Part shown: positions 21,778-43,780 of the stretch, piece after piece
Numbering within the stretch: the first letter of the stretch is position 1
How the letters are laid out: each line of letters opens with the position of its first letter
Assembly (NCBI GenBank): GCA_000276965.1
Contig: AKKQ01000007.1
Coordinates: 1 to 59,174, forward strand
Reading direction: 5' to 3'
DNA length: 59,174 nucleotides
Source: Thiovulum sp. ES
GTDB lineage: Bacteria > Campylobacterota > Campylobacteria > Campylobacterales > Thiovulaceae
Translations under genes and position numbers: made by a program
Notes under the pieces: model-generated
Databases searched by the model: none
What the model saw: only the letters and a program-made list of their open reading frames with translations
What the model was told of the DNA's origin: nothing

Positions 21778-21837
21778 ATATCAGTTTTTATTATATGGTA
21801 ACATTTAACTTGTTATTACTTATATTTACAATCAAGG

Positions 21838-23028
21838 ATGAAAAAAATTATGATTTTAAAAAAAGATAATTTATTTTCATATTTTATACTCACAATCAGT
21901 CTTGCTTGGTTAATGATAGATACACTTAATGGAATAATTGGTTACTTTAAAGATTTATATATATTTTCATCTTTTTTTAGAGCCATAGTTTTCTTTGTAA
22001 TGTATATATACATATATAAGTATTTTTATAAAAATCTATTTTTTAACTTAACATCAGCTTTGTTATTCTTGCTTACAATAATTCATGTTATTTTATTTGC
22101 AAATGTAGAATCAGTGAAAATGGTTATAAAAGTTTTGATGCCGTTATTGATGTATTTTACATTTAATATTATGTTGAAAAAACAACATATTAGTTTTAAA
22201 AACATAAAGTTTATAATCATTATAAATACATCTGTTATTTTACTTAATTTATACCTATATTATTTTGGAATTGGTTTTGACAATTATGGAATTGATGATA
22301 CAACAAAGCTCTTAAAAGGTGGTACAGGTTTCTTTTATGCGGGTAATGAAGTTGGGGCAACATTAATTGCATTATTGATATTAAATATATTTATATTTTA
22401 CAAAAAAAATATTATTTTTATTTCTATTGTTGTGATGTTTTTTCTAATTGCATCTTTGGCACTAATGTCCAAAACAGCTATTTTTGGTGTATTACTAATT
22501 TATTTTTTATATCTTTTTTCAAGATATGCAGTAACAACAATACTAAGTTATCTATTTGTAACAATCACATCTACTATACTTTATGTATATAATATATTTA
22601 TAGAGCAAATTAATTTAACTATAGAAAGGTGGAGTTATTTTTATAATGAATATGGTGTTGTGTATTTATTTGGGGGTATTAAAAGATGGACTCATGTACA
22701 TCAATGGATATTAGATATTTCAGCTAATCCGTTTAGCTTGTTTTATGGGACTGGTTGGAGTGGTGAATGTGAAAATAATTTTTTTGATTTATTACAAGCC
22801 TTTGGAATTGCTGGATTTATCATTTTTATATTCTGGGTAGGAATATTCTTTAAATTATTTAAAACTAAAAAATATAATCCTAAAATGTACTTTGTCTCTC
22901 TATCATATGGTATTTTAATTGGAATTAGTTTTTTTGCTGGACATGTAATGCAATCTGCAATGTTGTCACTATTTTTAGTATTAGTCTCACATAGTAATAA
23001 GATTTATGCATTGTCAAATAAGCTATAA
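21838..23028 (+). CDS. Wzy-like O-antigen/capsule polymerase
   Basis: A 396-residue hydrophobic protein with about ten membrane helices and a larger periplasmic loop (roughly residues 260-315, containing HVHQWILDISANPFSLFYGTGWSG), the usual form of O-antigen ligase/polymerase proteins. Sequence similarity in this family is low, so the call rests on topology and position next to a flippase and glycosyltransferase. The ATG at 21,838 abuts AAGG; an in-frame ATG at 21,850 is an alternative start. Confidence 0.75.
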   Translation: MKKIMILKKDNLFSYFILTISLAWLMIDTLNGIIGYFKDLYIFSSFFRAIVFFVMYIYIYKYFYKNLFFNLTSALLFLLTIIHVILFANVESVKMVIKVLMPLLMYFTFNIMLKKQHISFKNIKFIIIINTSVILLNLYLYYFGIGFDNYGIDDTTKLLKGGTGFFYAGNEVGATLIALLILNIFIFYKKNIIFISIVVMFFLIASLALMSKTAIFGVLLIYFLYLFSRYAVTTILSYLFVTITSTILYVYNIFIEQINLTIERWSYFYNEYGVVYLFGGIKRWTHVHQWILDISANPFSLFYGTGWSGECENNFFDLLQAFGIAGFIIFIFWVGIFFKLFKTKKYNPKMYFVSLSYGILIGISFFAGHVMQSAMLSLFLVLVSHSNKIYALSNKL

Positions 23029-23054
23029 TTTTATATAATCTAGGGAGCTAAGCA

Positions 23055-24083
23055 GTGAAAATATTAATAATATCAAATATGTATCCATCACCACAAAAAC
23101 CATATAGTGGTATTTTTGTAAAAAATCAATATGACTATTTAAAGAAAGAGTTAAATCAAGATATTGAAATTTATGCAATGGAAAGAAGTTTTACAAATAA
23201 AATTGGAAGTATTTTTAAATATCTCAAAGCATTTTTATTATTTTTCCCATATTTATTTAAGAAATATGATGTTATTCATTTACATTATTTCTTTCCTATG
23301 GTAATTTTATCAGTATTCTATAAAATTTTATATCCAAAAACAAAAATAGTTGTTACTTTTCATGGATCAGATATAACAAACTTTGTAAATTCAAATTTAA
23401 GTAAAAGGTTTTTTACTAAATTAATAGATAGGTGTGATTATATTATTTCAGTAGGAAGTGATTTGTCAGAAATTATATTTAAAAAGTTAAATAAAAAGTC
23501 TGATTTAGTTTTAAGCGCAGGAATAGACGAACGTGTATTTTATGAAGAGGAATCTATTAAAAAAGAGTATGATTTTATTTTTGTTGGGTCGTTTATAAAG
23601 AGAAAAGGCTTAGATATATTACTTAAAGCAATACAAATAGTGGATAATAAAAATATTCGATATTGCATAGTAGGTTCAGGAGTACTAGAGAAAAATGTAT
23701 TAGAAGTTTCTAAAAAATATAATATAATTTTATTAAAAAACCAAACACAAGAGCAATTAAGAACATTATATAATCAATCAAAATTCTTTATTTTACCGTC
23801 AAGAGATGAGCCATTTGGATTAGTCGTCTCCGAAGCTATTTTTTGTGGAACACCTGCTATTGTATCAAATATAGGTGGTATGAAAGATCAAGTTAAGGAT
23901 GGAATTAATGGATTTATTTTAAAAGAAAACACTCATGATGAACTTGCAAAAAAAATAAAAGAAGTGGAAAATATTTCTGAAAAAGAGTATAAACAACTGT
24001 CTGTAAATGCTTTAAACTCAAACCAAGAACACTCATTAGAAAATATTTCAAAAAAATTAATAGAGATTTATAATGAACTTTAA
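23055..24083 (+). CDS. Glycosyltransferase family 4
   Basis: A 342-residue GT-B fold transferase. The N-terminal domain begins ILIISNMYPSPQKPYSGIFV, with the mid-domain FHGSDITNF. The C-terminal donor-binding domain has FVGSFIKRKGLDILLKA and the EX7E motif within DEPFGLVVSEAIFCG. The GTG start has AGGGAG upstream. It adds one sugar of the repeat unit; donor and acceptor cannot be read. Confidence 0.9.
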   Translation: MKILIISNMYPSPQKPYSGIFVKNQYDYLKKELNQDIEIYAMERSFTNKIGSIFKYLKAFLLFFPYLFKKYDVIHLHYFFPMVILSVFYKILYPKTKIVVTFHGSDITNFVNSNLSKRFFTKLIDRCDYIISVGSDLSEIIFKKLNKKSDLVLSAGIDERVFYEEESIKKEYDFIFVGSFIKRKGLDILLKAIQIVDNKNIRYCIVGSGVLEKNVLEVSKKYNIILLKNQTQEQLRTLYNQSKFFILPSRDEPFGLVVSEAIFCGTPAIVSNIGGMKDQVKDGINGFILKENTHDELAKKIKEVENISEKEYKQLSVNALNSNQEHSLENISKKLIEIYNEL

Positions 24084-24591
24084 AAGAAAAATTTTTTATC
24101 TATTTTACATATCTTTATTTCGTTTTACTCCAGAAGATTATAGACCCTATTCACTATTTTTTCCAAAAGTTAGAAATTGGTTAGTAAAAAAATTTACAAA
24201 CAGTTGTGGCAAAAATATTAGAGTTAAACACAATGCCGATATATCTCCAAATATTTGGATTGGTAAAAACTCAGAGCTAGGAACAAGATGTATGATACAT
24301 GGGAATGTTCATATTGGAGATAATGTAATTATGGGACCAGATGTAAAAATATATGCAAGAAATCATAAATACGAAAGATTAGACACACCTATAAGAGAAC
24401 AAGGAAAACACTATTTGAAAACAGAAATAGCTAATGATGTTTGGATTGGAGCAAACTCTATTATTACAGCAGGTGTTAAAATTGGAAATCATGCAATAAT
24501 AGGGGCTGGTGCAGTTGTAACAAAAGATATTCCAGATTTTGCAATTGTTGGAGGTGTTCCAGCAAAAATCATAAAGTTTAGAAATGAATAA
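24073..24591 (+). CDS. Hexapeptide-repeat acetyltransferase
   Basis: A 172-residue left-handed beta-helix acyltransferase of the WcaF/NodL/maltose O-acetyltransferase type. Hexapeptide repeats run from about residue 55 (ISPNIWIGKNSELG) to 160 (IGAGAVVTKDIPDFAIVGGVPAK), with the catalytic-type loop RNHKYERLD. It overlaps the GT4 gene by 11 bases and probably O-acetylates the polysaccharide. Confidence 0.9.
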   Translation: MNFKRKIFYLFYISLFRFTPEDYRPYSLFFPKVRNWLVKKFTNSCGKNIRVKHNADISPNIWIGKNSELGTRCMIHGNVHIGDNVIMGPDVKIYARNHKYERLDTPIREQGKHYLKTEIANDVWIGANSIITAGVKIGNHAIIGAGAVVTKDIPDFAIVGGVPAKIIKFRNE

Positions 24592-25444
24592 ACTCATCTA
24601 CCTCATCGGTGCAGGACGAAGTGGAACAACAGCACTTGCCACTTTTTTAGGAAATAGTAGAGATATTACAACTATTGGAGAGATGCATCAGTTTTTTGAA
24701 CATTTAGAAAAAGGTAAAAGTTGTTCTTGCGGAAAAGAGTTTTTAGAGTGTAAATTTTGGAATCCAATTTTAGAAAAACTTCCAAAAGAGTTTTTAGAGA
24801 ATCCAAAAAAATTTCAAGAATTTACAGAGCAATTTGAGTATCACAGTTCAATACCAAAATATCTTTTTAGAAAATTTAGAGTCGATGAGGTTCAAAAATA
24901 TTTAGAAATAAATGAAGCTATTTTTTCAGGATTTCAAAACAGATATATTTTAGACTCTGCAAAATATATTGGTCGCTATTTAGGATTAAGAAAATCTAAA
25001 AAACTAGAAGTAAAAGCCATCTATTTAGTTCGTGATGTTCGAGGAGTTGTAGACTCTTTTTCAAAACAGGTTCAATCTTCAAGAAAACCTTTAAGTTCCA
25101 TTGTGTATTGGTTAATCATAAATTCAATTGCAGAAATTATTTATAGATTTTCAAAAGAAAAAATCTTAAAAATTAAATATGAAGACTTGATTGAAACACC
25201 TATTTCCGAATTTGAAAAAATTGAAAAGTTTTTAGATTTAGATTTAAGTGAGATAAAAAATAGAATAGAAAAAAGCGAACCTTTTGAAATGCCCCATATA
25301 GTTGGTGGAAACAGAATAAAAAGTAGTAAAGAGATATATTTTAAAAGTGACATAGCTTGGAAAAATAAAATGAGTCGATGGAAACAAGTTCTGTACTACT
25401 TTTTAGCTTTTCCAATTATGATTTTGAACGGATTTAAACTTTGA
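24584..25444 (+). CDS. PAPS-dependent sulfotransferase
   Basis: A 286-residue sulfotransferase. The 5'-phosphosulfate loop is GAGRSGTT (residues 9-16), the 3'-phosphate segment is RDVRGVVDSFS (150-160), and a cysteine motif CSCG...CKFW (47-59) is shared with many bacterial polysaccharide sulfotransferases. It overlaps the acetyltransferase gene by eight bases. PAPS would come from the cysDNC genes 9-12 kb upstream, and PAP be removed by CysQ. Two CGATGAGGT copies lie here, the first after the motif-free stretch. Confidence 0.9.
   Translation: MNKLIYLIGAGRSGTTALATFLGNSRDITTIGEMHQFFEHLEKGKSCSCGKEFLECKFWNPILEKLPKEFLENPKKFQEFTEQFEYHSSIPKYLFRKFRVDEVQKYLEINEAIFSGFQNRYILDSAKYIGRYLGLRKSKKLEVKAIYLVRDVRGVVDSFSKQVQSSRKPLSSIVYWLIINSIAEIIYRFSKEKILKIKYEDLIETPISEFEKIEKFLDLDLSEIKNRIEKSEPFEMPHIVGGNRIKSSKEIYFKSDIAWKNKMSRWKQVLYYFLAFPIMILNGFKL
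24599..24608 (-). repeat. CGATGAGGT copy (CGATGAGGTA, sulfotransferase)
   Basis: Antisense copy at codons 6-9; the gene strand encodes Y-L-I-G inside the nucleotide-binding strand. Confidence 0.7.
24883..24892 (+). repeat. CGATGAGGT copy (CGATGAGGTT, sulfotransferase)
   Basis: Sense copy encoding V-D-E-V-Q. Confidence 0.8.
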
Positions 25445-26376
25445 GAAATATATTTATAACTTTAGACTATGAACTCTTTTTTGGCTCAAATAGTGGAACA
25501 GTAGAAAAAAGTATTCTCTATCCAACAAATAAGCTCTTAGAGGTTTTAGATAAATACAATGTGAAAGCCTCGTTTTTTGTAGATAGTGGCTATCTATTAA
25601 AATCTGGAGACAAAGAAGTTATTTCTCAAATAGAAAAGCTTTCAAAAGAGGGGCATGATATTCAACTTCATATTCATCCTCATTGGGAAGATAGCTACTT
25701 TCAAGATAGTTGGAAAATGGATACAACACGATATAGACTTCACCAATTTGAAAATATAGATGAAATTGTAGGTAAGTATAAAAAAGCTCTTACTGATATA
25801 GTTGAGAATCAAGTTTTTGTGTTTCGTGCTGGAGGCTGGTGTATTCAACCATTTGATAAAATTAAAGATGCTCTAAAAAAAGAGAATATATGGCTAGACT
25901 CAACACTATTTTATGGTGGAAGAAACAAGAGTGAAACCCATTTTTTTGACTTTAGAAACTCTCCAAAAATGGATTTTTGGCAATTTGAAGAAGACCCTCT
26001 AATAGAAAAAGATGGTTTTTTTACGGAAATTCCAATTTCAAGTTATAAACTTTCACCTCTCTTTTTCTGGAAACTAGCATTTTTTAAAAAGTTTGGTGGG
26101 CAAAAGTATAAATCTTTTGGAGACGGAAGTGCTATCGGTGGTTCAAAATGGGACAAGATAAGAATGCTAACCTCTTTTTCTTGGAGTCCTGTCTCAATTG
26201 ATGGTTATAAATCCTCATTTCTCCAAAAAGCATTTGAAGAGTTTTCAGAGAAAAATTTTGTAATAATAGGACATCCAAAGGCATTGAGTAAGTACTCTTT
26301 AAAAAAGCTTGAAGAATTTATAAAGAAAAATATTTCTGAAAACTTTACGACCTATTCAAAAGAGTTTTTAAAATGA
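25441..26376 (+). CDS. Polysaccharide deacetylase family protein
   Basis: A 311-residue NodB-like protein. The first motif ITLDYELFFGS carries the likely catalytic aspartate and the metal motif is HIHPHWED (residues 76-83); FRAGGWCIQ matches a later family motif. The TTG start overlaps the sulfotransferase stop. It probably N-deacetylates an amino sugar of the polysaccharide, which could create a site for further substitution. Confidence 0.83.
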   Translation: MRNIFITLDYELFFGSNSGTVEKSILYPTNKLLEVLDKYNVKASFFVDSGYLLKSGDKEVISQIEKLSKEGHDIQLHIHPHWEDSYFQDSWKMDTTRYRLHQFENIDEIVGKYKKALTDIVENQVFVFRAGGWCIQPFDKIKDALKKENIWLDSTLFYGGRNKSETHFFDFRNSPKMDFWQFEEDPLIEKDGFFTEIPISSYKLSPLFFWKLAFFKKFGGQKYKSFGDGSAIGGSKWDKIRMLTSFSWSPVSIDGYKSSFLQKAFEEFSEKNFVIIGHPKALSKYSLKKLEEFIKKNISENFTTYSKEFLK

Positions 26377-27107
26377 GAATAAATATATTTAATTGTCCAA
26401 TTGACACTTTTACAATGGCAGAGACAATCGAGAAGATAGATAAGTCTATACAAAATAGAAACCATCTCCATCATGTAGTTGTAAATGCTGCAAAACTTAT
26501 AAATATGCAAAAAGATATAGAGCTTTACAATTCAGTTGTAAATGCAGATATTATAAATCCTGATGGTCAGGCTGTTGTTTGGGCAAGTAGGATTTTAAAA
26601 CAACCTTTACCTGAAAGAGTAGCTGGAATAGATATTATGCAAAATATTGTAAAACTTGCATTTGAAAAAGGGTATAGGATTTTCTTTCTTGGTGCAAAAG
26701 AGGAAATTGTAAAGGGTGTTGTAGAAAGATACAGTAAAGAGTTTTCATCAGAAATAGTTGCTGGATATAGAAATGGTTACTTTGGAAAAGAAGAAGAGAG
26801 TGTTGCAAGAGAGATAGCTGAAAGCAGAGCAGATATTCTTTTTGTTGCTATCTCTTCACCAACTAAAGAGATTTTTTTAGAGAAGTATAAAGAGATTATA
26901 GATGCTCCATTTATAATGGGAGTTGGTGGTAGCTTTGACGTTGTTTCTGGAAAAGTAAAAAGAGCTCCACTCTGGATGCAAAAGTCTGGATTGGAGTGGT
27001 TCTTTAGGTTTTTACAAGAACCTCGAAGAATGTGGAGACGAGCTTTTATTACAAATGGAAAATTTATTTTATTAGTATTAAAAGAGTATTTAAAAAACAA
27101 AAAGTAA
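26373..27107 (+). CDS. wecG: WecG/TagA/CpsF-family glycosyltransferase (GT26)
   Basis: A 244-residue GT26 transferase. Family marks are NAAKLINMQKD, INPDGQAVVWASRIL, LPERVAGIDIM, FFLGAKEE and GVGGSFDVVSGKVKRAP. In enterobacterial common antigen the family moves ManNAcA onto lipid-linked GlcNAc. With wecB and wecC in the same locus, ManNAcA is the likely donor here. It overlaps the deacetylase by four bases. Confidence 0.88.
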   Translation: MRINIFNCPIDTFTMAETIEKIDKSIQNRNHLHHVVVNAAKLINMQKDIELYNSVVNADIINPDGQAVVWASRILKQPLPERVAGIDIMQNIVKLAFEKGYRIFFLGAKEEIVKGVVERYSKEFSSEIVAGYRNGYFGKEEESVAREIAESRADILFVAISSPTKEIFLEKYKEIIDAPFIMGVGGSFDVVSGKVKRAPLWMQKSGLEWFFRFLQEPRRMWRRAFITNGKFILLVLKEYLKNKK

Positions 27108-27110
27108 ATT

Positions 27111-28058
27111 ATGAATATTTTAAATATTGCAAAAGAAGTTTTTGAAATTGAATCTCAGGAAATCAGAAATATTTCAAATGCACTAACTGAAGATTTTGAA
27201 AAATCTGTAAATGAAATTTTAGCTTCAAGTGGAAAAGTTGTTGTTTCTGGAATGGGAAAATCTGGGATCATTGGAAAAAAGATTTCTGCAACTCTCTCCA
27301 GCACTGGAACGGCTAGTTTTTTTCTCCATCCAGCAGAAGCATATCATGGAGATTTAGGAGTTGTTGAAAAAGATGATGTGATTCTTTTAATTTCAAACTC
27401 TGGTGAAACTGATGAAATTTTAAAAATAGTTCCTTTTTTTAAGAAATATGGAAATAAAATAATTTCTATGAGTGGAAATCCAAATTCTACTCTTGCAAAA
27501 AACACAGATTTCCATTTAAATATTGGTGTGGAAAAAGAGGCTTGTCCGCTACAACTTGCACCAACAAGTTCTACAACGGCAACTCTTGTAATGGGTGATG
27601 CACTTGCAGTTGCACTTATGAAAATGAGAGATTTTAAAGATGTTGATTTTGCAAAATTTCACCCTGGTGGAAGTCTTGGAAAACGACTACTTTCAAAAAT
27701 TAGTGATGTGATGAAGAAAGAGAATTTACCAATTTGTGAAAAGTCGACCTCATCGAAAGAGATAATTCATCAAATTAGTTTTGGAAAAGTTGGTTCTGTT
27801 GTTGTTTTGGAAAATGAGCAAATTATTGGTGTTATCACCGATGGAGATATTCGTCGAGCGATGGAGACAAAAGAGGAGACTTTTTTTTCTTTAAAAGCTG
27901 AAGACTTGATGTCGAAAAATCCAAAAACAATCTACGAAAATCAAAACCTAGAAGAAGCAAGTGAAGTTATGAACAAATACAAAATAAATTCTCTTCTTGT
28001 TTTAGATGAGAAAGAGAATTTTGTCGGAATTGTTAAAATGTATGATTTGAAATCTTAA
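27111..28058 (+). CDS. kdsD: Arabinose-5-phosphate isomerase (KdsD/KpsF)
   Basis: Converts ribulose-5-phosphate to arabinose-5-phosphate, the first step to Kdo. Its 315 residues hold an N-terminal SIS domain ([36 protein letters not shown]) and two C-terminal CBS domains (about 200-315; [13 protein letters not shown]). It is the last gene of the plus-strand locus and overlaps lptB tail to tail by four bases. Confidence 0.94.
27746..27755 (-). repeat. CGATGAGGTC copy, exact (kdsD)
   Basis: Antisense copy followed by G (CGATGAGGTCG); the gene strand encodes S-T-S-S-K in the linker between the SIS and CBS domains. Confidence 0.9.
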
Positions 28059-29270: not shown

Positions 29271-30698
29271 TTGAAAGCTACAATTAGAAAAGAGATCGCT
29301 GTATTTTATCCCAACAAAACCTTTGTTGATTCTGGCAATGTGAATGATGTTTTGTCAAGTGATGATCTAAAAAGTACAGTTTTTAACAAAAGGGTTTCAA
29401 CTGTTCTTGTCTCCCTAAAATTTGTTCATTATTTTAATGCAATTGGAATTTCTATTATTGTTGAAAGATTGAATTGGATTCAGGAAGAATGGAAGCAGAA
29501 AATGGAAGCCAAAAAACCTTTACGAGTAGGTTTTTGTGATTTGAATGAAGAGAAACACAATTTATTAAATCATATATTTGGAAAAGAACCAAATTTTGAT
29601 ATTTACAAAACATTTGAAATTGCAATGCTATTTTCAACAAAAGCATTTGGAAGAAACGATGAAAAAATCCTACTTTGGAATAGCGATTATGAGCAGAGAA
29701 CTTACCAAGGATTTGAACTTCTTGAAAATAATCATAATCTTTTAATTGCTCACTCTGAAAAAGATTTCACAAACTATTTTACAAGTCCAAAAATGCATTT
29801 TTCAATGGTTGTTCGAGATTCTTACATTAACATTGCAAAAAAAGTGAAATTTGCGACTGTTCATGAAAACTCTATTATTTACAATTTTGAGGGTTATATT
29901 GACTCAAGAATCGATTTTAAATTCAATATGATTTATCATGACGAAGCAATTGCAAGTGGTTTTAAGCTTTTTATTTTTGATTTAAATAGTGTTGTCGGAA
30001 TGAATGCAAAAGGAAAGCTGTTTTTTGAGAAGATTAAAGAAAGTAGTAAATCCGTAAATATTGTTGTTACTGAAACAGGAAAAAACTCGTTAAATACAAA
30101 AAAAGAGTTTGAAAAATTAGATATTCCTATTTTTAAAGATTTAAAAACAATTCTAGAAAATAAACCACTTTTTAAAAGTCTTGGTGGAGAAATAGTTGAT
30201 ACAAAAAAGAGGAAACATGGAATTTCAAAGGACCTCATCGAGCAAATTCCAATTTTTCTTAATGCCACAATTTCAACTTTTGAAGTTATGCTTCAATTTA
30301 TGGCAAAAAAGAGAAATCCTCCTAAAGTTCAAAAATTAGATGTAAGTGAAATTCACGGAAAGATTATGATTGCATCGATTGCATTTCACGGAGATTTAGA
30401 AGGCTTTATTATTCTTGTTTTTCCTTATAGACTCGCAAAACATAGTTCTCAAATAATTATTGATGGGGAAATAGAAACAGTTGCTGAAGTCCTTGACACA
30501 ATTGGTGAATTTACAAATATTATTGCAGGAAGAACAAAAGCTGATTTTTCTGAAGAGGGAATTGGAATTTCAATAACTCTGCCAAAAACATACACATCAA
30601 TTGAAAGTCTTGGCAAAGTTATAAACCTAACAAGAGTTGGTGTTCAAATGGATTTATCTTTTGATGATGAAAATTTTATATTTTTTCTCACTCGATGA
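29271..30698 (+). CDS. CheX-type chemotaxis phosphatase domain protein with N-terminal STAS-like regions
   Basis: A 475-residue cytoplasmic protein. Residues 320-475 match the CheC/CheX family: FLNATISTFEVML, a GKIMIASIAFHGDLEGFIILVFP sheet and the active-site ExxN motif in GEFTNIIAG. This domain dephosphorylates CheY-P in other bacteria. Residues 1-110 and 190-310 look like STAS-type folds (KFVHYFNAIGISIIVERL; FKLFIFDLNSVVGMNAKGKLFFE). It starts with TTG, and its stop overlaps the next gene's ATG. A link to flagellar behaviour is supported by flagellar genes nearby, but is inferred. Confidence 0.78.
   Translation: MKATIRKEIAVFYPNKTFVDSGNVNDVLSSDDLKSTVFNKRVSTVLVSLKFVHYFNAIGISIIVERLNWIQEEWKQKMEAKKPLRVGFCDLNEEKHNLLNHIFGKEPNFDIYKTFEIAMLFSTKAFGRNDEKILLWNSDYEQRTYQGFELLENNHNLLIAHSEKDFTNYFTSPKMHFSMVVRDSYINIAKKVKFATVHENSIIYNFEGYIDSRIDFKFNMIYHDEAIASGFKLFIFDLNSVVGMNAKGKLFFEKIKESSKSVNIVVTETGKNSLNTKKEFEKLDIPIFKDLKTILENKPLFKSLGGEIVDTKKRKHGISKDLIEQIPIFLNATISTFEVMLQFMAKKRNPPKVQKLDVSEIHGKIMIASIAFHGDLEGFIILVFPYRLAKHSSQIIIDGEIETVAEVLDTIGEFTNIIAGRTKADFSEEGIGISITLPKTYTSIESLGKVINLTRVGVQMDLSFDDENFIFFLTR
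30231..30240 (-). repeat. CGATGAGGTC copy, exact (STAS-CheX gene)
   Basis: Antisense copy; the gene strand encodes K-D-L-I-E. Confidence 0.9.
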
Positions 30699-30702
30699 GG
30701 TT
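30693..30702 (+). repeat. CGATGAGGT copy (CGATGAGGTT) spanning a stop/start junction
   Basis: The motif contains both the TGA stop of the STAS-CheX gene and the ATG start of the prepilin-like gene. Confidence 0.8.
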
Positions 30703-31339
30703 TGCATTCTCTCTGCTTGAAGTTATTATAGTTATCTCAATTTCATCAATTCTTTTAATTGGAATTTCAAAAGTCTTCTCGAATTTATATAAAACATATT
30801 TTCGGAATGTAGAATTGCATAAAAAAGATGCGACCCTTTCAAATGCAAATTTACAACTCTCTAAATTTTTGCAAAATTCAATTTCTCATACAATTCAATT
30901 TGATGGGAAAAAGCTTCAGTGGTTTGGAAATTCTTCAGATTTAAATAATAAAACTGTTTTGAGAATTGCAAATCTAAATAGTAGCAATTCCACTCATTTG
31001 CACATTTCAGAAATAAATATATCTCTTTTTAATGAAATCATTTCTAGTTTTGATAGCGATGAGGTCAGGCTATTTTTTCAGGGTGAAAATTTTTCTGGTA
31101 ATTTTTCAAAAGTTGCTGAAAAGTATTTTTTTGTTTCAAAAGATTTCTCTACAATTTGGGAAAATTTTGAAATCTCGTTTATAAAATATGTTCTGGAAAT
31201 TGAAAATGGAAATCTATATTTAAGTTTAAATGGAAATAGGTCTATTTTCTTGGAAAATGTATCTTTCTTTGATTTTAATTCCACAAATCAGAAATTCAAA
31301 ATTTGTATATCTGATTTGTGTCAAAAGCAAATTTTTTAA
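30695..31339 (+). CDS. Prepilin-type N-terminal methylation domain protein
   Basis: A 214-residue type IV pilin or pseudopilin-like protein. The N-terminus MRFAFSLLEVIIVISIS is a class III signal: short basic leader, cleavage before F5, Glu at +5, and a long hydrophobic helix (5-26). The residue before the cleavage is Ala instead of the usual Gly, which prepilin peptidase tolerates in some proteins. The rest is soluble and lacks known motifs; it may be a minor pilin. It would be assembled by the ATPase at 8,742 or another one. It overlaps the flgG-type gene tail to tail by four bases. Confidence 0.82.
   Translation: MRFAFSLLEVIIVISISSILLIGISKVFSNLYKTYFRNVELHKKDATLSNANLQLSKFLQNSISHTIQFDGKKLQWFGNSSDLNNKTVLRIANLNSSNSTHLHISEINISLFNEIISSFDSDEVRLFFQGENFSGNFSKVAEKYFFVSKDFSTIWENFEISFIKYVLEIENGNLYLSLNGNRSIFLENVSFFDFNSTNQKFKICISDLCQKQIF
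31057..31066 (+). repeat. CGATGAGGTC copy, exact (prepilin-like gene)
   Basis: Sense copy with G before it (GCGATGAGGTC), encoding S-D-E-V-R. Confidence 0.9.
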
Positions 31340-32578: not shown

Positions 32579-33103
32579 CTAAATATCTGGTAAATCTGGT
32601 GTAATTATTCCGATTGATAAATCAGGTAATTTTGGAGGCAAAAGCTCTTTTGGCAAAGGAGTCCTTTTTTGCAACTCACCATCTTTGTTTGCCACCATTA
32701 TAGGCTTTTGAACTTCAAAGTGCTTATATTGAGCTATCTGTTCTAATCTAGCATCTTCACTGTAATAATCAGCAACATATATTGCAAATGATGAATCGAG
32801 TTGAATAAAAAGAGAGGCTGTGTGGTCAAGACCACTGTTTGGAGAGTATTTAAAAAATCTTGTAACTTTATCAGTTGTTATATTTTTATCTCCGAAAATC
32901 TTTCCATTTGATAAGTTGGGAGTTAGTGGATCATCTGCATAAGATATTCCATTCTCTTTTACTTCTTTTAAAAAATCTTTGTAGTTTTTGCTCTGAATGT
33001 TTTTTTGAAAATCAATCTCTTTATAAATATCAAAGAGTGATGAGTTCTCTTCGCAACCAAAAACAAACAGAAGCAGAGGAAAAAATCTAAATATTTTCAT
33101 CAC
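32579..33103 (-). CDS. Lipoprotein of unknown function
   Basis: A 174-residue lipoprotein: the signal FRFFPLLLFVFGC has its lipidation cysteine at residue 17, followed by EENSS. The C-terminus is proline-rich (LPKELLPPKLPDLSIGIITPDLP). No domain is recognised. The start overlaps the end of the beta-helix gene by four bases, so it belongs to the same exported-protein operon and may act with it at the outer membrane. Confidence 0.8.
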   Translation of the reverse strand: MMKIFRFFPLLLFVFGCEENSSLFDIYKEIDFQKNIQSKNYKDFLKEVKENGISYADDPLTPNLSNGKIFGDKNITTDKVTRFFKYSPNSGLDHTASLFIQLDSSFAIYVADYYSEDARLEQIAQYKHFEVQKPIMVANKDGELQKRTPLPKELLPPKLPDLSIGIITPDLPDI

Positions 33104-36039
33104 TTATATAACCATAGACCCGCATTTTTTGGAACATAGTTGAAGACTTCAAAGTGTGAATTTCTAATTTTTCTACGAATATCAGGCAATGGACTGTATC
33201 CTTTAAATTCACCGTCTGCAAAAATCCACACAATCTGTATTCCATCAAATATTGTAACATCTTTTATTTCAGCAAGTGTTCCCAATAAAGACCAACCTTT
33301 TGGCAAGTTTTTAATCGTCTCTTCTGTAATTCTAATTCCAAATTTACTAGGATCAGCTTTAATTTTATCTGTTAGTCTCATCATCTCATTTTGGACTTGA
33401 GACATGGAAAGTAAATTGAATTTCTCAGGATTTTCTATAATTTCTTTTTTTGCTTTGCTTTCAGCAATTTTTACATTCTTTTTACTCGTAAAATTATATT
33501 CATCAAGATTTGAAATTATCTCTTGTTCAATTTCAGTAATAATCTCTTCATAATTTTTGAAACTTGCCAAATCAAACTCTTCAGGGTGTTCAAGAATGTA
33601 ATTTTTTGCATTCTCAATAGCTTCATCAGATTCTGGACTTTGAGAAATAATATTTAACTCTTTTAAAGAGTTTAAAATATAACTTTCAACTTCTTGCACT
33701 CCATTGTTATACATAACCATTTTTGATATATTCTGATCACCCTCAAGCTCACCAACATACATTTGCAAAAATTCAGATTGTCGCTCTTCAGCTGTTTCAA
33801 TTCCAATAGCTTTATAGTAACTTGTTGGATTTTCAAGAATTTTCATAATTCCTCGACTCATACTTTCAAGATAGACTCTTGAGTCTTCATCTTGAATTAG
33901 CTCTTTAAAATCATCTTTTGAGAGTTCATAAACGGCAACAGGAAATTTCTTTTCAACAACATTTCCTTCGCTATCAGCAATCTTAACTTTTACATCTTTA
34001 ATTCCAGAAGTGTGAAAACGGTAGTTTATAGAATTTCCACGAATCTCTTCATAGCCTCGACCCTCGTCAAAATCAATCATCTGTTTTACAATTCTATTTC
34101 TTCCGTCCCGAATAACTGTAACGAACCTCATCTCTTTGAAAATCTTATGATCGCCCTCGATCATTAAATCGCTAATATCAGCAACAGTAGAAGTTCTTCT
34201 TTCACTTTTGTCTCTATCTCGAGAGAGGATCTCAATTTTTTCTGTTTTTGTTGAAATTAGCTCTTGTTCTGGAATATGAAACACTTTTGAATAAGCAGTT
34301 CTTGTATCAAATGTCTCTTTACACGAAGCCTGTTTGTCAAGAGAAATACCAACCTTTGCAATTTCTGTGTCTCCAAAAATTTCAATAAAATCTGTATCTT
34401 TTAGATTTTTAATTGGTTCATTCCCTTTTGTTTTTCTTTTGTAAAGTTCATCATTATAAATGTTGCTTAAAGTTAAATAATTGTTTTCAAGCTCAATATG
34501 TCCATTCAGGTAAATCTCCTGAGAAACAAGGTCGGGAGCAGTCGAATTTTTAATAATCGAATTTGCAATTAAACCTTTTCCATAGAGACTCATTCCCTTT
34601 CCATAATTTTTAACAAGAAGAGAGTTGAAAATTCTCACATTCCCAAAAATAGCACCACCATAAGTTGCACTGTTGTTAAAAAGTAGAGTGTTTGTAATAT
34701 TCAATTTTGCTGTGTGTGGAGTGCAAATTGCACCACCTTTATAAGCTCTATTCTTTGTTAGATTTGATTGAGTAATTGTTATATCAACTGCATCAATAGC
34801 TCCACCATTTCGTCCAGCTGAATTGTCGCAAAGAGTTGAATATCTGATTTTTATATCAAACCCTTTTATTGCACCTCCGCGATTTGTAGCTCTGTTTTCA
34901 GAAAAAATAGTATCTGTAAAAGTCCCATTTTTTGTTAAGATAGCTCCACCCTTATAGCTACTATTCCTTTTGAAATCAGAACTTGTTGCGATTACAATAT
35001 CAGATGAGATAGCCCCACCAACTCTATTTGTGCTGTTTAAAATAAATGTTGAGTTCTCAATTGAAACTCTTGTTGATTTTATAGCTCCACCGCCGTATTT
35101 TGAACTGTTCCCAAGAAAATATGCACTAGAAATTTTAGAATTTTTTGAAAAGATAGCTCCGCCATATTTTGCCTCATTTTTTCTAAGAATTGAGTTTTCT
35201 AAATCAAGTGTGTCTGCAAAAATAGCTCCGCCATAATTCTCAGAAATATTATTAGACATATTTACATCAAAGACTCTAGCTTTTATGCTTTTTATTGCAC
35301 CGCCATCATATTTTGCACGATTATTTTTAAATATAACTTTTTCAACTTTTAAACCACTTTCACCATAAAATCCTCCACCATAACCACTTGAATTGTTAGC
35401 AAGAGTTGAGTTCTTTATAAGTGCTGTTTGTGTGCTAAAAATTCCGCCACCATGTTTTTTTGAGTAATTATATGAAATTGCAGAGCTGTTAATAACAAGA
35501 TTTTTTCCTGAAAAAACACCTCCTCCAATTCCTCGTGATGATTCATTTTTTGCAATAATAGAATTATTTACAATAATAGTTCCACCAGCATGAACACCGC
35601 CACCATCATAATCAGAACGGTTATAAGCTATAACAACATTATCTAAATCAAGTTCTCCGCTATTTTCAACAAAAACACCTCCACCTTGATTTTCAGTGTA
35701 GCCGTTTTGAATTGTTATTCCAGAGATATTTACAATTATTTTATATTTTTTGTTCGAGACTTTTATTGTTGAACGAACACCATTCCCATTAACAATAATA
35801 TTGCTTCTATCAACTCCGTCTGCTCCTTGGATTGTCAAATCAAAATCTTCTGTTGATTCGTAGTAGAAAGGGTATCTAAAAGTTGATAAATACCTTCCTC
35901 CTGCGAGGATAATCGAGTCATCTTCTTGATTATTTTCGGCACTCTTTAAGGCTAAATAGAACTCTTTTGCATTTGACACATGAAAATCTTTTCCATAAAG
36001 TTGTAGAAAAAGAGAGAAGAAAATAATGAGAAGTTTCAA
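33100..36039 (-). CDS. Pmp-like beta-helix surface protein with GGA(I) repeats
   Basis: A 979-residue exported protein with a signal peptide (LLIIFFSLFLQLYG). Residues 100-480 hold 15 repeats of about 24 residues, each with GG(A/G)(I/V/F) followed by N-rich segments such as FSENRATNR, like the GGA(I,L,V)/FxxN repeats of chlamydial polymorphic membrane proteins, which form a right-handed beta-helix. Unlike Pmps there is no C-terminal autotransporter barrel. Residues 640-930 are helical with five NP-x-x-F-x-L type repeats (HPEEFDL, NPEKFNL, DPSKFGI), and the last 60 residues begin GWSLLGTLAEI. The TTG start has AAAGGA upstream. Likely an adhesin or matrix protein. Confidence 0.85.
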   Translation of the reverse strand: MKLLIIFFSLFLQLYGKDFHVSNAKEFYLALKSAENNQEDDSIILAGGRYLSTFRYPFYYESTEDFDLTIQGADGVDRSNIIVNGNGVRSTIKVSNKKYKIIVNISGITIQNGYTENQGGGVFVENSGELDLDNVVIAYNRSDYDGGGVHAGGTIIVNNSIIAKNESSRGIGGGVFSGKNLVINSSAISYNYSKKHGGGIFSTQTALIKNSTLANNSSGYGGGFYGESGLKVEKVIFKNNRAKYDGGAIKSIKARVFDVNMSNNISENYGGAIFADTLDLENSILRKNEAKYGGAIFSKNSKISSAYFLGNSSKYGGGAIKSTRVSIENSTFILNSTNRVGGAISSDIVIATSSDFKRNSSYKGGAILTKNGTFTDTIFSENRATNRGGAIKGFDIKIRYSTLCDNSAGRNGGAIDAVDITITQSNLTKNRAYKGGAICTPHTAKLNITNTLLFNNSATYGGAIFGNVRIFNSLLVKNYGKGMSLYGKGLIANSIIKNSTAPDLVSQEIYLNGHIELENNYLTLSNIYNDELYKRKTKGNEPIKNLKDTDFIEIFGDTEIAKVGISLDKQASCKETFDTRTAYSKVFHIPEQELISTKTEKIEILSRDRDKSERRTSTVADISDLMIEGDHKIFKEMRFVTVIRDGRNRIVKQMIDFDEGRGYEEIRGNSINYRFHTSGIKDVKVKIADSEGNVVEKKFPVAVYELSKDDFKELIQDEDSRVYLESMSRGIMKILENPTSYYKAIGIETAEERQSEFLQMYVGELEGDQNISKMVMYNNGVQEVESYILNSLKELNIISQSPESDEAIENAKNYILEHPEEFDLASFKNYEEIITEIEQEIISNLDEYNFTSKKNVKIAESKAKKEIIENPEKFNLLSMSQVQNEMMRLTDKIKADPSKFGIRITEETIKNLPKGWSLLGTLAEIKDVTIFDGIQIVWIFADGEFKGYSPLPDIRRKIRNSHFEVFNYVPKNAGLWLYK

Positions 36040-36062
36040 GTTTGTCCTTTAAATTTTAAATT

Positions 36063-37543
36063 TTAACAACCTTCTGGTGTAAAACAGAAGTCAATAGAAT
36101 CGGTTGTCTGCGAATAATTATTTATGTCGGTTGAATCATAAGTTTGCGGATCGAAACTTGGAAATGCACTCTCTCGACAAACAATATCTTTATCGCTTTC
36201 ACTGTAATACTTGACAAAGAATTTTGTTCCTGCAAGTGTTGAGTCATAGTAAATATTTGCAATTTCTGCACCATTTTTCGGATCAAAAATATAGTGAATT
36301 CCATATTCAAAATCGCCAGATGATGTAGTAGTCATTGTTTGATGATAAACAAGAACTTTACTAAAATTGTTTCCAATATTAGTTTCATGTCTTGAAAGAA
36401 GATAAATTAAACCGTCTGGACTTTGAGTTGCATCTGGTGAAGCAGGTGAATTATCATCAACAGTCCTTTCATATCCAGTTGTTGAACTAACTCCACACTC
36501 AAAAAGATCGTATGTCATTTCCGTATTTCGTTTTGTTGATTCAATATTGAAAAAATAGTCTTCTGAAGCACCAGTTGGTTTTCCATTTTTTAACTCAGTC
36601 ATCTCAATTTCAATATTTTCCATTCCCTCTTTTAAACCAATAACTTGCATCGTAAATTCAATTCCATTTTCAGTATTTTCTTGAAAAAGTTTTTTCTCTA
36701 TAAAAAGACTAATAATTTCTCGCTCATTGATTAAAGCTTCATCTTTAATATCAAATTTCAAGTCATTACCAAGAGTATTTGAAGCATATAGAGTAATATT
36801 GACCTCATCGCCATCTGCTACAATGGGATAAGTTGCTCCCTCATTTTTGATGGCTGTAATTGAGAGTTGCTTTTCAACTGTAATTGTAAAATCGATTTTT
36901 TTCTTATATGTTCCATTATCAAGCTCAACTCTAAATTTATCTATACCAAGAATGTTAGAAGAAGCAACTTGAATTGTGTAGTCATACTCTTTATCAACTC
37001 TTGCTTGACCGTCAAGTGTAAGAGTAATTCTGTCGTCAGTAATTGCACCTTCACCCTCTAGCTTTTTAAGAGTTATAACTTCATCTTGCTGAGTAGGTGT
37101 AGAACGAATTCTAATTTCAAGATTTTGATTTGTTCCCATTGTAAAATCGTAACTTGAAACATTATTGTAGTCTGGAAGAGTTAATGTAAAATCTGTAACA
37201 AGAATTGAATCATCTACAACATCTTCTTCTGTATCTTCGACATCTGTTGTATTATCTACATTGCTGTCTACCGATTCATCTTCGTTTGAAACAACTTCAT
37301 CATCCAAGCTAGGGACATCATCGACAATAGTACCTGTATCTTCATTTACATCAACAACACTATCTGTTTCATCAATTTCATCTATTGTTTCATCAGGAGT
37401 AGCTTCTTCGATTACTGTTTCTGTTGTCTCTTCATCGTCATCAATATCTAAAATCTCTTTATTGATCTTATCAACAACTTCACAACCACTAAAAAAAGAG
37501 AAAAAGAGGAGATCAGTGCAAAAATAGTTAGTATCTGTCTCAT
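36063..37543 (-). CDS. Acidic surface lipoprotein, frameshifted in an A7 run
   Basis: The ATG at 37,541-37,543 has a strong GGGGAG site and reads MRQILTIFALISSFSLF, then the frame runs out to a stop at 37,448. One extra base in the A7 run (37,491-37,497) would continue as FSGCEVVDKINKE, a textbook lipobox with Cys21, followed by about 90 Asp/Glu/Thr/Val-rich residues and an open frame of over 400 residues. The body looks like beta-rich extracellular domains (TLPDYNNVSSYDFTMGTNQ). Without the shift the longest product would start internally at 37,307 and lack a signal. It could be phase variation or a sequencing error. Confidence 0.75.
36801..36810 (-). repeat. CGATGAGGTC copy, exact (acidic lipoprotein)
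   Basis: Sense copy with G before it, encoding G-D-E-V-N. Confidence 0.9.
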
Positions 37544-37544
37544 T

Positions 37545-37763
37545 TTAATACTCCCCGTAATCCTCTTCTCTGTAGTTTGTCCCCTCTATCTGATTACTAA
37601 TTTCGTCATAGTAGTATTGTTCATCTTCTGGACTTAAAACACTATCACTCATTTTGTCACAATACTTTCCATCAGACTGATCAATGTAAGTATATGTTGC
37701 AACAGAACCAAAAACACCCCCCACTAGGGAGGAAACCATTAATACGGCAACAGCTGTTAGCAT
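37545..37763 (-). CDS. Small exported protein
   Basis: A 72-residue protein with an N-terminal hydrophobic segment (LTAVAVLMVSSLVGGVFG, residues 2-19) that may be a signal or anchor. An acidic, tyrosine-rich tail follows (EDEQYYYDEI, REEDYGEY). AGGAG eight bases before the ATG supports expression. It lies 12 bases after the 1346-residue gene and one base before the acidic lipoprotein, so it is part of the same operon. No family recognised. Confidence 0.7.
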   Translation of the reverse strand: MLTAVAVLMVSSLVGGVFGSVATYTYIDQSDGKYCDKMSDSVLSPEDEQYYYDEISNQIEGTNYREEDYGEY

Positions 37764-37775
37764 TTAAAACTCCTT

Positions 37776-40700
37776 TTAGTCTTCACCAATTGTTTGCCCA
37801 CTATTCTCAATCTCCTCAAGAACACAAGCTTCGTCTTCATTATAACAACCATCTTGGAAAACACCTCGATATAAATTTCCATCGTTATAAACAAAGAAAT
37901 TTTTATCTTCATAATTATTTGTAAATTTAACTTTTCCAATTTTATTGTTGAAAGCATCTTTCACAAACATCGTAATAGGAGTTGTTGTTGAGAATGAAGC
38001 ACCCGTAATAGGTGTATATGTAAATGTTGTTGTTCCTTTTAATGAAAGAAGAGAAACCCCACTATCATCTTCAAGATTATCTGTGTTTTTAAAAGTTCCA
38101 CTTTTTACACAACTCTCATCATAAACTGTTGGAAGTTGATCCGCACTTTCATCTGTTCTATTGCTAACAAGAACATGAACATTTCTCATAGGAACGTATC
38201 TAACAGTTGTAATATCTGAAACATTTGCTTGTTCTGGACTTGCATTATCTAAAGCAACAATTGCAAGATCAAAATAATCTAAACTATTGTTTTCAACCTC
38301 TAAAACTGGACAAAGAGTATCAAGACCACTTGTTCCTTTTGCTTTATCAACAGTCATAACATAGTTATCTTCATCAGCTAAATTATCAACACCGCTAACA
38401 TCGTTAATTCTATCTTTAAAAATCATGTAATTAACTGTATCATCAAGTGTTCCAAGTGCTTTATCTCCAGAAATAACATAAAATTTAGTAGATTCAATCT
38501 TATCGCCATTTACAAATGAGACAACAGGTTTTGTAGGTTTTTTGACATCAATGGAGATATTAAATTCATCTCTTGAGAGTCGTCCATCTGTTGCTGTAAT
38601 TGTTATAAATTGAAGAGCATCGCTTAAATCAGGAATTTCAAAATAATCTAACATTAAGTTTTGATAAGGACTAATTCCACCAAGTGAAGTTGTTCCAAGA
38701 GAAATTCTTTGCATTGGAAAATCAAATGCTTCTAAGTCCTCGTTGATACCATGTAAATTAACTGTAACATACCCGCTTAACTCATCTTCAATTCCTTTAA
38801 CATTTACATCGCTGATTGTTAAATTGAAATAGTTTCGAGTAATTCCTCTCTCATTATCAAATTCTCTAATGTAGTTTTTTGTAATACTAGGAGCAGTTGT
38901 TCCATCGTCAATAATTCCAAAATCTAATTGCAAGTTATCAATTGTATCAAGATAAACCCAGTAAGCTTTTTGATTATGTGTTGAGAAAAGATTGTATTCG
39001 TTATACCATCTATCAATTTTCCGAACTGGTGAAAGGCTTTTCCAATAAATCCGACCCTCTTGCGAACTAGTTTCACTACCAACAATCATAGTCGGTAAGT
39101 AATTTGTAGATGATGCAAAAGCCTCTGAAAGAGTTATTAGTGCATTTGTAGCGATGAGGTCGCTTGTTGAAATTGAATTTCCATTTAAATTTTCTACCGC
39201 ACCCTGATAAGCTTCAAGTTCAGAAGCATTACTCGGGAACGAAAAATCAATAACTCCGTCTTCGCCAATACCCAATTTAGACAATCCATTTCCTTGGAAA
39301 ACACTTAAAATTGAACCTCTTGTTTCAGGAATATCAAAAGATTTATTAAGAGAGAGAGAGTCATCAGAGACATTGTCTTCAGCAATTACTTCTCTTAAAA
39401 GAATATTATACATGTTTGAATTTACAACAATATATTCACTCTGATTTCCATCAACATCACTACCGTTTTCATCAAAAATATAGAATTTAACAGTAATATC
39501 TCCACCATCAAAAGTTTGAGTAGTGTTAAAATCAGAACCAATTAGAGATGAAAAATTCGAGTCTTTTTTGATTATTGCAGTGTCATTTGGAATACCATCA
39601 TCATTTTCATCATTCAATAATTCTGCATTTTCACCATTACCTTGATAAATACCAATATATAGATCACCTTCTAAATTAGGATCATAAGTGTATGTTTTAG
39701 TATACGTAGTGTCTTTGATGTAAAATGTATTTTCAGAAACAACAAGAATTGATTCATTATCTTCAATAGTTCCACTAAAATCTATATCTATTGCATAAGC
39801 TTTAAGAAGTTTTCCATAGTTTGGAGAAGAAGCAGTATCATCTCTAGTAAAATCTTTGTTGTTAATAACACTAACTGCCGTTTCTAAAGTTGTTCCAAGA
39901 GACAGAGTTTCAATTGATTTATTTATTTCAGTTTCATTTCCGTCAATACCAACAGAATAAGCAGTTATTTCAAATTCAGCATCACTAGCTTGAGTAATTT
40001 GTGAAGTTAAATTTGGTTGAACGAGAAGTGCATAATCACCATATTGAGAAATTAATTGACCAGCTTCTAACTCTTCACCAGAGAGAGTTTTTCCAGTAGT
40101 TGTTGTAACATCAAATTCAACTTTAAATTCATCATCTGAAATAATCACAAGACCATCGTCTTCACCAATCGGATAAGCTCGAATATTAAAGGCTTGAGTC
40201 GAAAGTTCCCCAGTAGCAATTGCATTTTTTACATTTTCATTAATTGTTCTAGCTACATTTGATGCAAGATTTTCATTTGTTCCAATATATAAATCAAGAC
40301 TCTCGATTTTCACAGTATTTACACCAAAAGGATCAGAAATATAAATCTTTTCAATTGTCTCATCCCAATCTTCAAAAACAATTCCTGTAACACTTCGCCG
40401 AATTGTTGAAGTTGGAAGAGTTAAAAGATTCCAGCCTTTAGTCGCAATATTCTTATAGACTGAATTTGATGTAATTGTTACACTTGTGTCTCCAAGAACA
40501 AGCCCTGATTTAATATCTTTTGTAGTCCAAAACATTTTATCAGATGTTCCAATATTTGAGAATATATCAATATCACCGCTCTGAACTTCTTTTAATTTAA
40601 TATCTGTTTGACTACTATAATTGATTTTAAGAAGAATTGAATTATCAGCAATTTTAACAGCTTGTAATGAGAATCCATCCGCACCACTATTATAATTTGT

Positions 40701-41816
40701 TTGATCTTTTAATTCAGTTAGAACAGAATCTATATCACTATCAGTAAAGTTTATATCATAAGAACTACTATTAACAGTTAAAATTAAATTACTAGGAGTT
40801 CCCTTTCCATAATTGTCATTTAATTCAAGTGTCTGGATATAGTCAAATGTGTTATCGTTTGAAATATAAGTATCATTTTTAAATTTCATCCAATAACCTT
40901 TACCTGCTTGAAGCTCTTCAAAGTCATTTTGTGTATTTTTATTACTGTAATCTAACCAAGTTCCATCAATACTGTTGTATGTATAAATTCTAAGCTCCGA
41001 ACCTTCTGCAAGATCATTATCTCCATCAAGCGGAACTTGATGTTTTGTTGTTACATAATCACGAAGTTCTCTTTCATAGTTAGAGTAAAGAGTGAGGTTT
41101 GCATCTCCAAAACCTGGGTTGTCATTCAAGTATAAATCAACAATTTCATTAACTGGTTGTGTTTTTTCAGAAAGAGCTTTTTTGTAATCTTCATTGTCAG
41201 AAGCAGGAAAATCAGCAGAATCTAAATAAACATCTGTTCTGCTTTGAGTAAGTGGAACTTCATAGATTTTATTCTCATCATAATCTAGTGAAAAAACAAG
41301 TGTAGCAACTGTATCAGTTGGGTGTCGGAAAACGGCTATCTCATCTCCACCACTTTGTCGGTAAACGAATTTATCAATCGCCATACCTGTATAACCGTCT
41401 CCACCACCACTGCTGTATTGTTTTACATTTTCACAACTAATTTGTGAAGAATCAACATCAACAACTAGGGGAGATAGAGAACCAATAGCTTCTTCAACTT
41501 TAATTGAGAAAAGCCAATAATAGCCCATCATATCATCTGTAACATCAGCTTCAGAACTCGTTTTTGTTCTGATTGTTGAACCTGCTACTGGTTCTTCGCA
41601 ATAAAAAGAAGTGTATTCTGATTGACTACCCGTATTTGAGTATTCAACACCATAAACATTGTTATAAAAACCTGCAACACCAACCATTTGCCAACTACCA
41701 CTTCCATTCTCATCAGTAAAGAGTCTAATATACTTAGGACTCAAATCACCTGCTGATGAAAGAAGAGTTTGAAAAATTAATGTTGCTAAAAAGAGCTTAG
41801 AAATTCGCCCCAACAT
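37776..41816 (-). CDS. Very large exported protein of unknown function
   Basis: 1346 residues from the ATG at 41,816, which has GGAGG seven bases upstream (the frame extends to 41,852 without such a site). The signal peptide is FLATLIFQTLLSSA. The body is beta-rich, acidic and low in cysteine. It includes KGWNLLTLPTS and AGKGYWMKF, resembling a small 'GWN-L / GYW' domain seen in other exported proteins and echoed at the end of the Pmp-like protein. The C-terminus has VCVLEE-type cysteine pairs. No C-terminal anchor or barrel is visible. It heads a five-gene exported-protein block and lies 59 bases after ligA. Confidence 0.78.
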   Translation of the reverse strand: MLGRISKLFLATLIFQTLLSSAGDLSPKYIRLFTDENGSGSWQMVGVAGFYNNVYGVEYSNTGSQSEYTSFYCEEPVAGSTIRTKTSSEADVTDDMMGYYWLFSIKVEEAIGSLSPLVVDVDSSQISCENVKQYSSGGGDGYTGMAIDKFVYRQSGGDEIAVFRHPTDTVATLVFSLDYDENKIYEVPLTQSRTDVYLDSADFPASDNEDYKKALSEKTQPVNEIVDLYLNDNPGFGDANLTLYSNYERELRDYVTTKHQVPLDGDNDLAEGSELRIYTYNSIDGTWLDYSNKNTQNDFEELQAGKGYWMKFKNDTYISNDNTFDYIQTLELNDNYGKGTPSNLILTVNSSSYDINFTDSDIDSVLTELKDQTNYNSGADGFSLQAVKIADNSILLKINYSSQTDIKLKEVQSGDIDIFSNIGTSDKMFWTTKDIKSGLVLGDTSVTITSNSVYKNIATKGWNLLTLPTSTIRRSVTGIVFEDWDETIEKIYISDPFGVNTVKIESLDLYIGTNENLASNVARTINENVKNAIATGELSTQAFNIRAYPIGEDDGLVIISDDEFKVEFDVTTTTGKTLSGEELEAGQLISQYGDYALLVQPNLTSQITQASDAEFEITAYSVGIDGNETEINKSIETLSLGTTLETAVSVINNKDFTRDDTASSPNYGKLLKAYAIDIDFSGTIEDNESILVVSENTFYIKDTTYTKTYTYDPNLEGDLYIGIYQGNGENAELLNDENDDGIPNDTAIIKKDSNFSSLIGSDFNTTQTFDGGDITVKFYIFDENGSDVDGNQSEYIVVNSNMYNILLREVIAEDNVSDDSLSLNKSFDIPETRGSILSVFQGNGLSKLGIGEDGVIDFSFPSNASELEAYQGAVENLNGNSISTSDLIATNALITLSEAFASSTNYLPTMIVGSETSSQEGRIYWKSLSPVRKIDRWYNEYNLFSTHNQKAYWVYLDTIDNLQLDFGIIDDGTTAPSITKNYIREFDNERGITRNYFNLTISDVNVKGIEDELSGYVTVNLHGINEDLEAFDFPMQRISLGTTSLGGISPYQNLMLDYFEIPDLSDALQFITITATDGRLSRDEFNISIDVKKPTKPVVSFVNGDKIESTKFYVISGDKALGTLDDTVNYMIFKDRINDVSGVDNLADEDNYVMTVDKAKGTSGLDTLCPVLEVENNSLDYFDLAIVALDNASPEQANVSDITTVRYVPMRNVHVLVSNRTDESADQLPTVYDESCVKSGTFKNTDNLEDDSGVSLLSLKGTTTFTYTPITGASFSTTTPITMFVKDAFNNKIGKVKFTNNYEDKNFFVYNDGNLYRGVFQDGCYNEDEACVLEEIENSGQTIGED
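39152..39161 (+). repeat. CGATGAGGTC copy, exact (large exported protein)
   Basis: Antisense copy in the form GCGATGAGGTCGC; the gene strand encodes S-D-L-I-A, as at 9,911. Confidence 0.9.

Positions 41817-41875: not shown

Positions 41876-43780
<1,905 letters not shown>

Follow-up and report, generated by a model that had tools for sequence, protein, structure and literature searches.

Locus and gene layout

The window analysed was a stretch of 59,174 nucleotides of Thiovulum sp. ES (contig AKKQ01000007.1 of assembly GCA_000276965.1, positions 1 to 59,174). Five packed genes, designated A to E, were confirmed on its minus strand at 32579-41816, with the spacing given in a preliminary description of the locus: intergenic distances of 12 (A-B), 1 (B-C) and 23 (C-D) bases, and a 4-base overlap of D and E. 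The end of ligA and the start of A are separated by 59 bases. The features considered were as follows, in order of transcription.

41876..43765, minus strand: ligA (NAD-dependent DNA ligase), the constant neighbour upstream of A
41816-37776, minus strand: gene A, 1346 aa, ATG start with a GGAGG site; predicted Sec-exported giant protein of an undescribed family
37763-37545, minus strand: gene B, 72 aa; predicted Gly-rich membrane helix (residues 1-26) and acidic variable tail
37717..37732, minus strand: predicted RNA hairpin CCUCCC-UAGU-GGGGGG, within the coding sequence of B
37543-36063 (from the ATG at 37543), minus strand: gene C, predicted lipoprotein with an acidic linker and a Thiovulum-type C-terminal domain
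37497-37491, minus strand: T7 run that breaks the frame of C in ES, inside the signal peptide of C
36039-33100, minus strand: gene D, 979 aa, TTG start; predicted exported protein with Pmp beta-helix repeats and a GW domain
33103-32579, minus strand: gene E, 174-aa predicted lipoprotein, GTG start; accessory, unlinked in three of five genomes

Conservation of the cluster

The cluster was compared across all available genomes of the Thiovulum family, which number five: Thiovulum sp. ES, Ca. T. imperiosus, Ca. T. karukerense, Ca. T. stygium and Campylobacterales UWMA-0117. Three of the other genomes, those of imperiosus, karukerense and stygium, share the order ligA-A-B-C-D with ES; in stygium, A-D lie at about 1229920-1238610 of CP091137. 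In UWMA-0117 the cluster is divided between two contigs: one carries ligA-A-B-C and the beginning of D, the other the remainder of D and then E. Mean pairwise identity among the five genomes was 46% for A, 60% for B, 42% for C and 54% for D, with 56% for LigA; the gene order was kept in the four other genomes at roughly 35-55% protein identity. The other flanking genes tested (those for EEP, RlmH, RimP and FlgG, and for two further proteins) were near the cluster in none of these four. Judged from gene order and sequence divergence, the linkage of A-B-C-D appears to be more than chance. LigA is not thought to take part in the function of the cluster. E was found in all five genomes and adjoined D only in ES and UWMA-0117, so the core was taken to be the four genes A-D.

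Co-occurrence in relatives had been set beforehand as a test of the preliminary description, with separate occurrence of the genes, or a match of each to unrelated known families, as the contrary outcome. A-B-C-D lay together and in the same order in all five genomes; on the contrary side, E was unlinked in three, A had homologues outside Thiovulum and D proved to carry a known repeat. B, C and the architecture of D were confined to Thiovulum in the samples searched. A signal peptide or lipobox was present in A, C, D and E and in their orthologues, that of C in ES being divided between offset frames.

Gene A and its wider family

Full-length orthologues of A were present across the Thiovulum family, the best conserved parts being mature residues 24-60, 430-475 and 900-960, which hold W-rich motifs. 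No Pfam or NCBIfam match was obtained with A, and a first scan of genome contigs with A also gave no match. When the Thiovulum A alignment was compared by hhalign with proteins of about 1100 residues from another Campylobacterota family, a match of 99.9% over 834 columns was obtained, and distant homologues were recognised in other Campylobacterota. On this profile evidence A is a member of a family of giant exported proteins, previously undescribed, which is spread over several Campylobacterota families and for all that span had no match in any library searched. ES itself carries further members at C1 and C21.

The A-like proteins of two other Campylobacterota families stand between lipoprotein genes, and many other A-like proteins are solitary. 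An arrangement of an A-like gene plus lipoprotein genes thus recurs with different partners: the likeness to the Thiovulum cluster lies in the hhalign match and, for some, in the position between lipoprotein genes, whereas the neighbours encode different lipoproteins together with small exported proteins, and B, C and D are absent.

Structure prediction gave no usable model, either for A residues 24-1202 (AlphaFold2, pLDDT 43) or for D residues 560-979 (pLDDT 32), most likely through lack of homologues. A Foldseek search with the A model gave no match at E<0.001, and PDB profile searches with A, the A-like proteins, B, C and D gave no credible match.

The flagellin IN motif (PF07196) was considered for A. 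The best scores were 16.7 bits (E 0.018) for A orthologues and 14.5 bits for A-like proteins, below the curated cut-off of 22.7 bits, and these sub-threshold matches fell at one position in several family members. No advantage over shuffled decoys was seen with a profile made from the IN repeats of Thiovulum. Unlike FliD and the flagellins, in which IN-motif domains occur, the A family has no flagellin or cap domains and its matches are always sub-threshold; IN-like modules in A are offered as a lead only. In the closed genome of stygium, gene A (L058, 4920-8887) falls into two parts because its frame changes at an A7 run.

Gene B

B had been described as an exported protein. Its residues 1-24 form a hydrophobic stretch with no K/R charge ahead of it, and residues 1-26 are 84% identical between genomes, whereas the A and D signal peptides reach only 34%. 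Because of the missing charge and this difference in identity, the N terminus of B looks like a functional membrane helix and not like an export signal that is cleaved off, and the earlier assignment was set aside. Among the five genomes 26 residues are invariant within the first 38, after which follows a variable acidic tail. A scan with a B profile found carriers besides ES in imperiosus, karukerense, stygium and UWMA-0117; among 397 genomes of the class there was no other acceptable match, one match (E 3e-4) lying inside a 550-aa frame. No phage copies of B were found. A type IV pilin was considered and rejected, since there was no N_methyl match and no G/FxxxxE motif in the five orthologues.

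Every genome of the family also holds one unlinked paralogue, B'. In imperiosus (L105, 2440-8302) B' is directly preceded by C', a paralogue of C treated below; two genes with type IV pilin-like N termini follow within 2 kb.

Gene C and its frame break

The C-terminal part of C, about 270 residues, is also the C terminus of lipoproteins of 1040-1290 residues (C') in each genome, two of them in ES. C also has an acidic linker, which is long, variable and of low complexity. Outside the family C had one weak match, in one other genome among 289 searched.

C had been taken for a lipoprotein, and in the four orthologues the signal peptide and lipobox are indeed intact in one frame. The ES copy is not one open frame. 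The ATG frame holds the start of the signal peptide (MRQILTIFALISSFSLF...), and the lipobox (FSGC) and the remaining 470 or so residues lie in another frame, which has no start codon of its own after the stop of B; the two part at the T7 run (37497-37491). The break may reflect a faulty assembly or a switch. A general role of frameshifts at homopolymers in phase variation of the operon was considered and not adopted: the T7 run in ES C and the A7 run in stygium A would fit, and the break in D of UWMA-0117 is not at a homopolymer.

Gene D, the GW domain and gene E

The preliminary description had found no recognised family among the five proteins, which held for A, B, C and E and was wrong for D. 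D matched Pfam Chlam_PMP (PF02415, E 1.8e-20, above the cut-off) and NCBIfam POMP_repeat (TIGR01376, E 7e-28). The layout of D comprises Pmp repeats, a strand-rich middle segment, a helical part and a C-terminal GW domain (residues ~912-979). Like the chlamydial Pmp proteins, D has a signal peptide followed by GGAI/FxxN repeats, for which a right-handed beta-helix fold is expected. It differs from them in that it lacks the C-terminal autotransporter beta-barrel (no barrel family was matched up to E 1), ends in the GW domain and shares an operon with a giant protein and lipoproteins. Its beta-helix has distant relatives outside the Thiovulum family.

The GW(N/S)LL motif that had been noted in both A and D was traced in D to a real C-terminal domain of 68 residues; the profile of this domain did not find it in A. 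The domain recurs in other exported proteins at the C terminus, in tandem at the N terminus and internally, and its occurrence at both ends and internally led to its rejection as a C-terminal sorting signal. On ES contig 21 (L121, 220-11504) the gene directly after a paralogue of A encodes a protein of 2323 aa that has a GW-type motif at its N terminus and numerous Kelch repeats.

E, the second lipoprotein named in the preliminary description, was borne out as such by a signal peptide with a lipobox Cys (MMKIFRFFPLLLFVFGCEE); the FGC of this lipobox is likewise present in UWMA-0117.

RNA hairpin within gene B

Since the A-B gap is only 12 bases, any element that separates A from the later genes would need to be placed within B. 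Codons 11-16 of B form a run of G residues (G6 in ES, G7 in imperiosus, G8 in karukerense, G7 in UWMA-0117, interrupted in stygium), and these genomes contain hardly any G/C runs with a length of at least six. The run makes up the 3' arm of a predicted hairpin whose 5' arm is CCUCCC, with a variant in stygium.

The native fold was compared with synonymous recodings that used each genome's own codon usage. It was extreme in all five genomes (P 0.016 in ES, 0.001 in imperiosus, 0.003 in karukerense, <0.001 in stygium and 0.004 in UWMA-0117). As a safeguard against selection of the site by eye, the same scoring was applied throughout ligA, A, B, C and D, in 1,073 aligned windows of 14 codons each. 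The three windows that contain the hairpin ranked 1 to 3, with mean z of -3.4, -3.3 and -3.2; the next had -1.8, and the spread was 0.54. Third codon positions of B outside the hairpin are free (49% identical). In the paralogue B' a comparable Gly-rich helix is encoded by ordinary codons, and the hairpin is lacking (z +0.8 to +1.7; L082, 16499-16909 in one genome). With B' as a built-in control, the hairpin would be a well-controlled case of RNA structure selected within a bacterial coding sequence. On the other side, the pairing register shifts between species, covariation is weak, and dinucleotide shuffles that keep the composition of the G run gave the hairpin z values of only -0.6 to -2.8.

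Known elements were also considered. There was no Rfam family match at the hairpin. The pattern of an intrinsic terminator, a GC-rich stem followed by a U tract, is present in ES, and the tails are U-poor in imperiosus, stygium and UWMA-0117. A phase-variation tract is not favoured for the poly-G, as the constraint on the 5' arm is just as strong and every frame is intact. Strong early hairpins were also seen in the gene after the A-like gene in another Campylobacterota family (L122, 7899-8312; L124, 9311-9706; L125, 5365-5784). These were not accepted as an independent replication, the window ranking only 11th of 768 by synonymous recoding, and are regarded as suggestive.

The most economical reading is that the hairpin would control the ratio of A to B-C-D. 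For the hairpin taken alone, a rather unlikely alternative is a series of rare codons at which the ribosome would slow down during synthesis of the membrane helix, with the pairing as a by-product. The arms are indeed made up of the least used codons (TCC, 1-11% of Ser codons; GGG, 3-18% of Gly codons) and lie within the helix, and TCC stands at codon 12 in all five genomes. Rarity alone would leave the complementarity of the arms in all five genomes to be accounted for, in stygium with partly different pairs, and B' encodes its similar helix in ordinary codons.

Proposed function

A cell-surface assembly of several proteins had been proposed in the preliminary description. An envelope or exported assembly is still the best reading, and it is narrowed to A-B-C-D by the linkage of these genes and the separation of E; of the kinds suggested, the data fit an adhesin, a sheath or a filament alike. 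We propose, with confidence that is evenly divided, that A-B-C-D is an operon of the Thiovulum lineage which builds an envelope-anchored, outward-facing protein assembly, and in which the hairpin makes A more abundant than B-C-D. A and D would leave the cytoplasm by Sec. C, and the unlinked E, would be acylated and anchor the assembly at the outer membrane through the acidic linker, and B would be embedded in the inner membrane through its helix. The giant A, predicted to be strand-rich, would be the chief structural component, and D, which adds further domains to a beta-helix, may serve for binding or capping. The hairpin just inside B could act as punctuation, by transcript processing, partial attenuation or a ribosome pause, and so raise A above B-C-D in abundance. 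A dosage gap between major and minor parts is common in surface structures.

This proposal is supported by the conserved gene order, the signal peptides and lipoboxes, the Pmp repeats of D, the position of A-like genes among lipoprotein genes and the C'-B' pair of imperiosus, and by a hairpin that directly follows A, is conserved against synonymous change in all five genomes and is missing in B'. Against it count the weak covariation, shifting register and modest shuffle z of the hairpin, and the broken C of the ES assembly. The cluster has no gene for an outer-membrane barrel, usher, sortase or pilin, and it does not encode a route for A and D across the outer membrane. Fibrillar adhesin and pilus operons likewise combine a large modular exported protein with anchoring lipoproteins and a hairpin after the largest gene; the cluster differs from them in lacking a chaperone, usher, sortase, pilin or known stalk-domain family, and in that its hairpin lies inside a coding sequence.

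The lack of an encoded exit route would also suit an internal envelope system, in which A, C and D act in the periplasm, either in tethering of the outer membrane to the wall or in handling of another exported product. C and E are lipoproteins, for which the inner leaflet is the default place, B belongs to a membrane, and very large cells may need extra tethering. This is considered a tentative alternative of fairly low probability, as Pmp repeats are otherwise typical of exposed surface adhesins and the long, acidic, variable linker of C is as expected of an exposed spacer. It is improbable that the cluster consists of unrelated exported proteins which merely share a transcript behind ligA. 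A and D have stand-alone relatives elsewhere and E is unlinked in three genomes, but an order conserved in all five at the identities given above, with the other tested flanks unshared, and the recurrence of B and C as the neighbouring B'-C' pair in imperiosus, argue against this reading.

Relation to stalks and veils

Thiovulum, a giant sulfur bacterium, ranks with the largest bacteria and with the fastest swimmers among them, and forms centimetre-wide veils from secreted stalks. As an operon of exported proteins that is both restricted to the lineage and universal within it, A-D makes a short and concrete candidate list for the unexplained cell surface of these organisms. Its distribution fits a lineage-specific structure such as a stalk or veil. 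That A-D make a Thiovulum-specific extracellular structure (part of the stalk, of the veil or of the fibrous antapical organelle), with the dosage of A set by the hairpin in B, is a long shot; the estimate was kept low because many other genes must share the distribution of A-D. The stalks and veils are described as arising from mucus exuded by a specialised feature of the cell wall, and the passages concerned with the stalk speak only of mucus or slime from the antapical organelle and name no gene (PMC4680615, PMC9938260). Short filaments of Thiovulum are attributed there to type IV pili (PMC9938260).

Three further loci were recorded. In stygium (L162, 1-4082) a lipoprotein gene is followed by long near-identical repeats (LRDLIFSNLDFSK...), present as several adjacent frames. 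The window contains a single gene for a pseudopilin-like protein (30695-31339; weak N_methyl match) beside a gene for a CheX-type chemotaxis phosphatase (29271-30698). It also contains, at 20674-28058, a surface polysaccharide cluster with genes for a pyruvyl transferase, glycosyltransferases, an acetyltransferase, a sulfotransferase, a deacetylase and a member of the WecG family.
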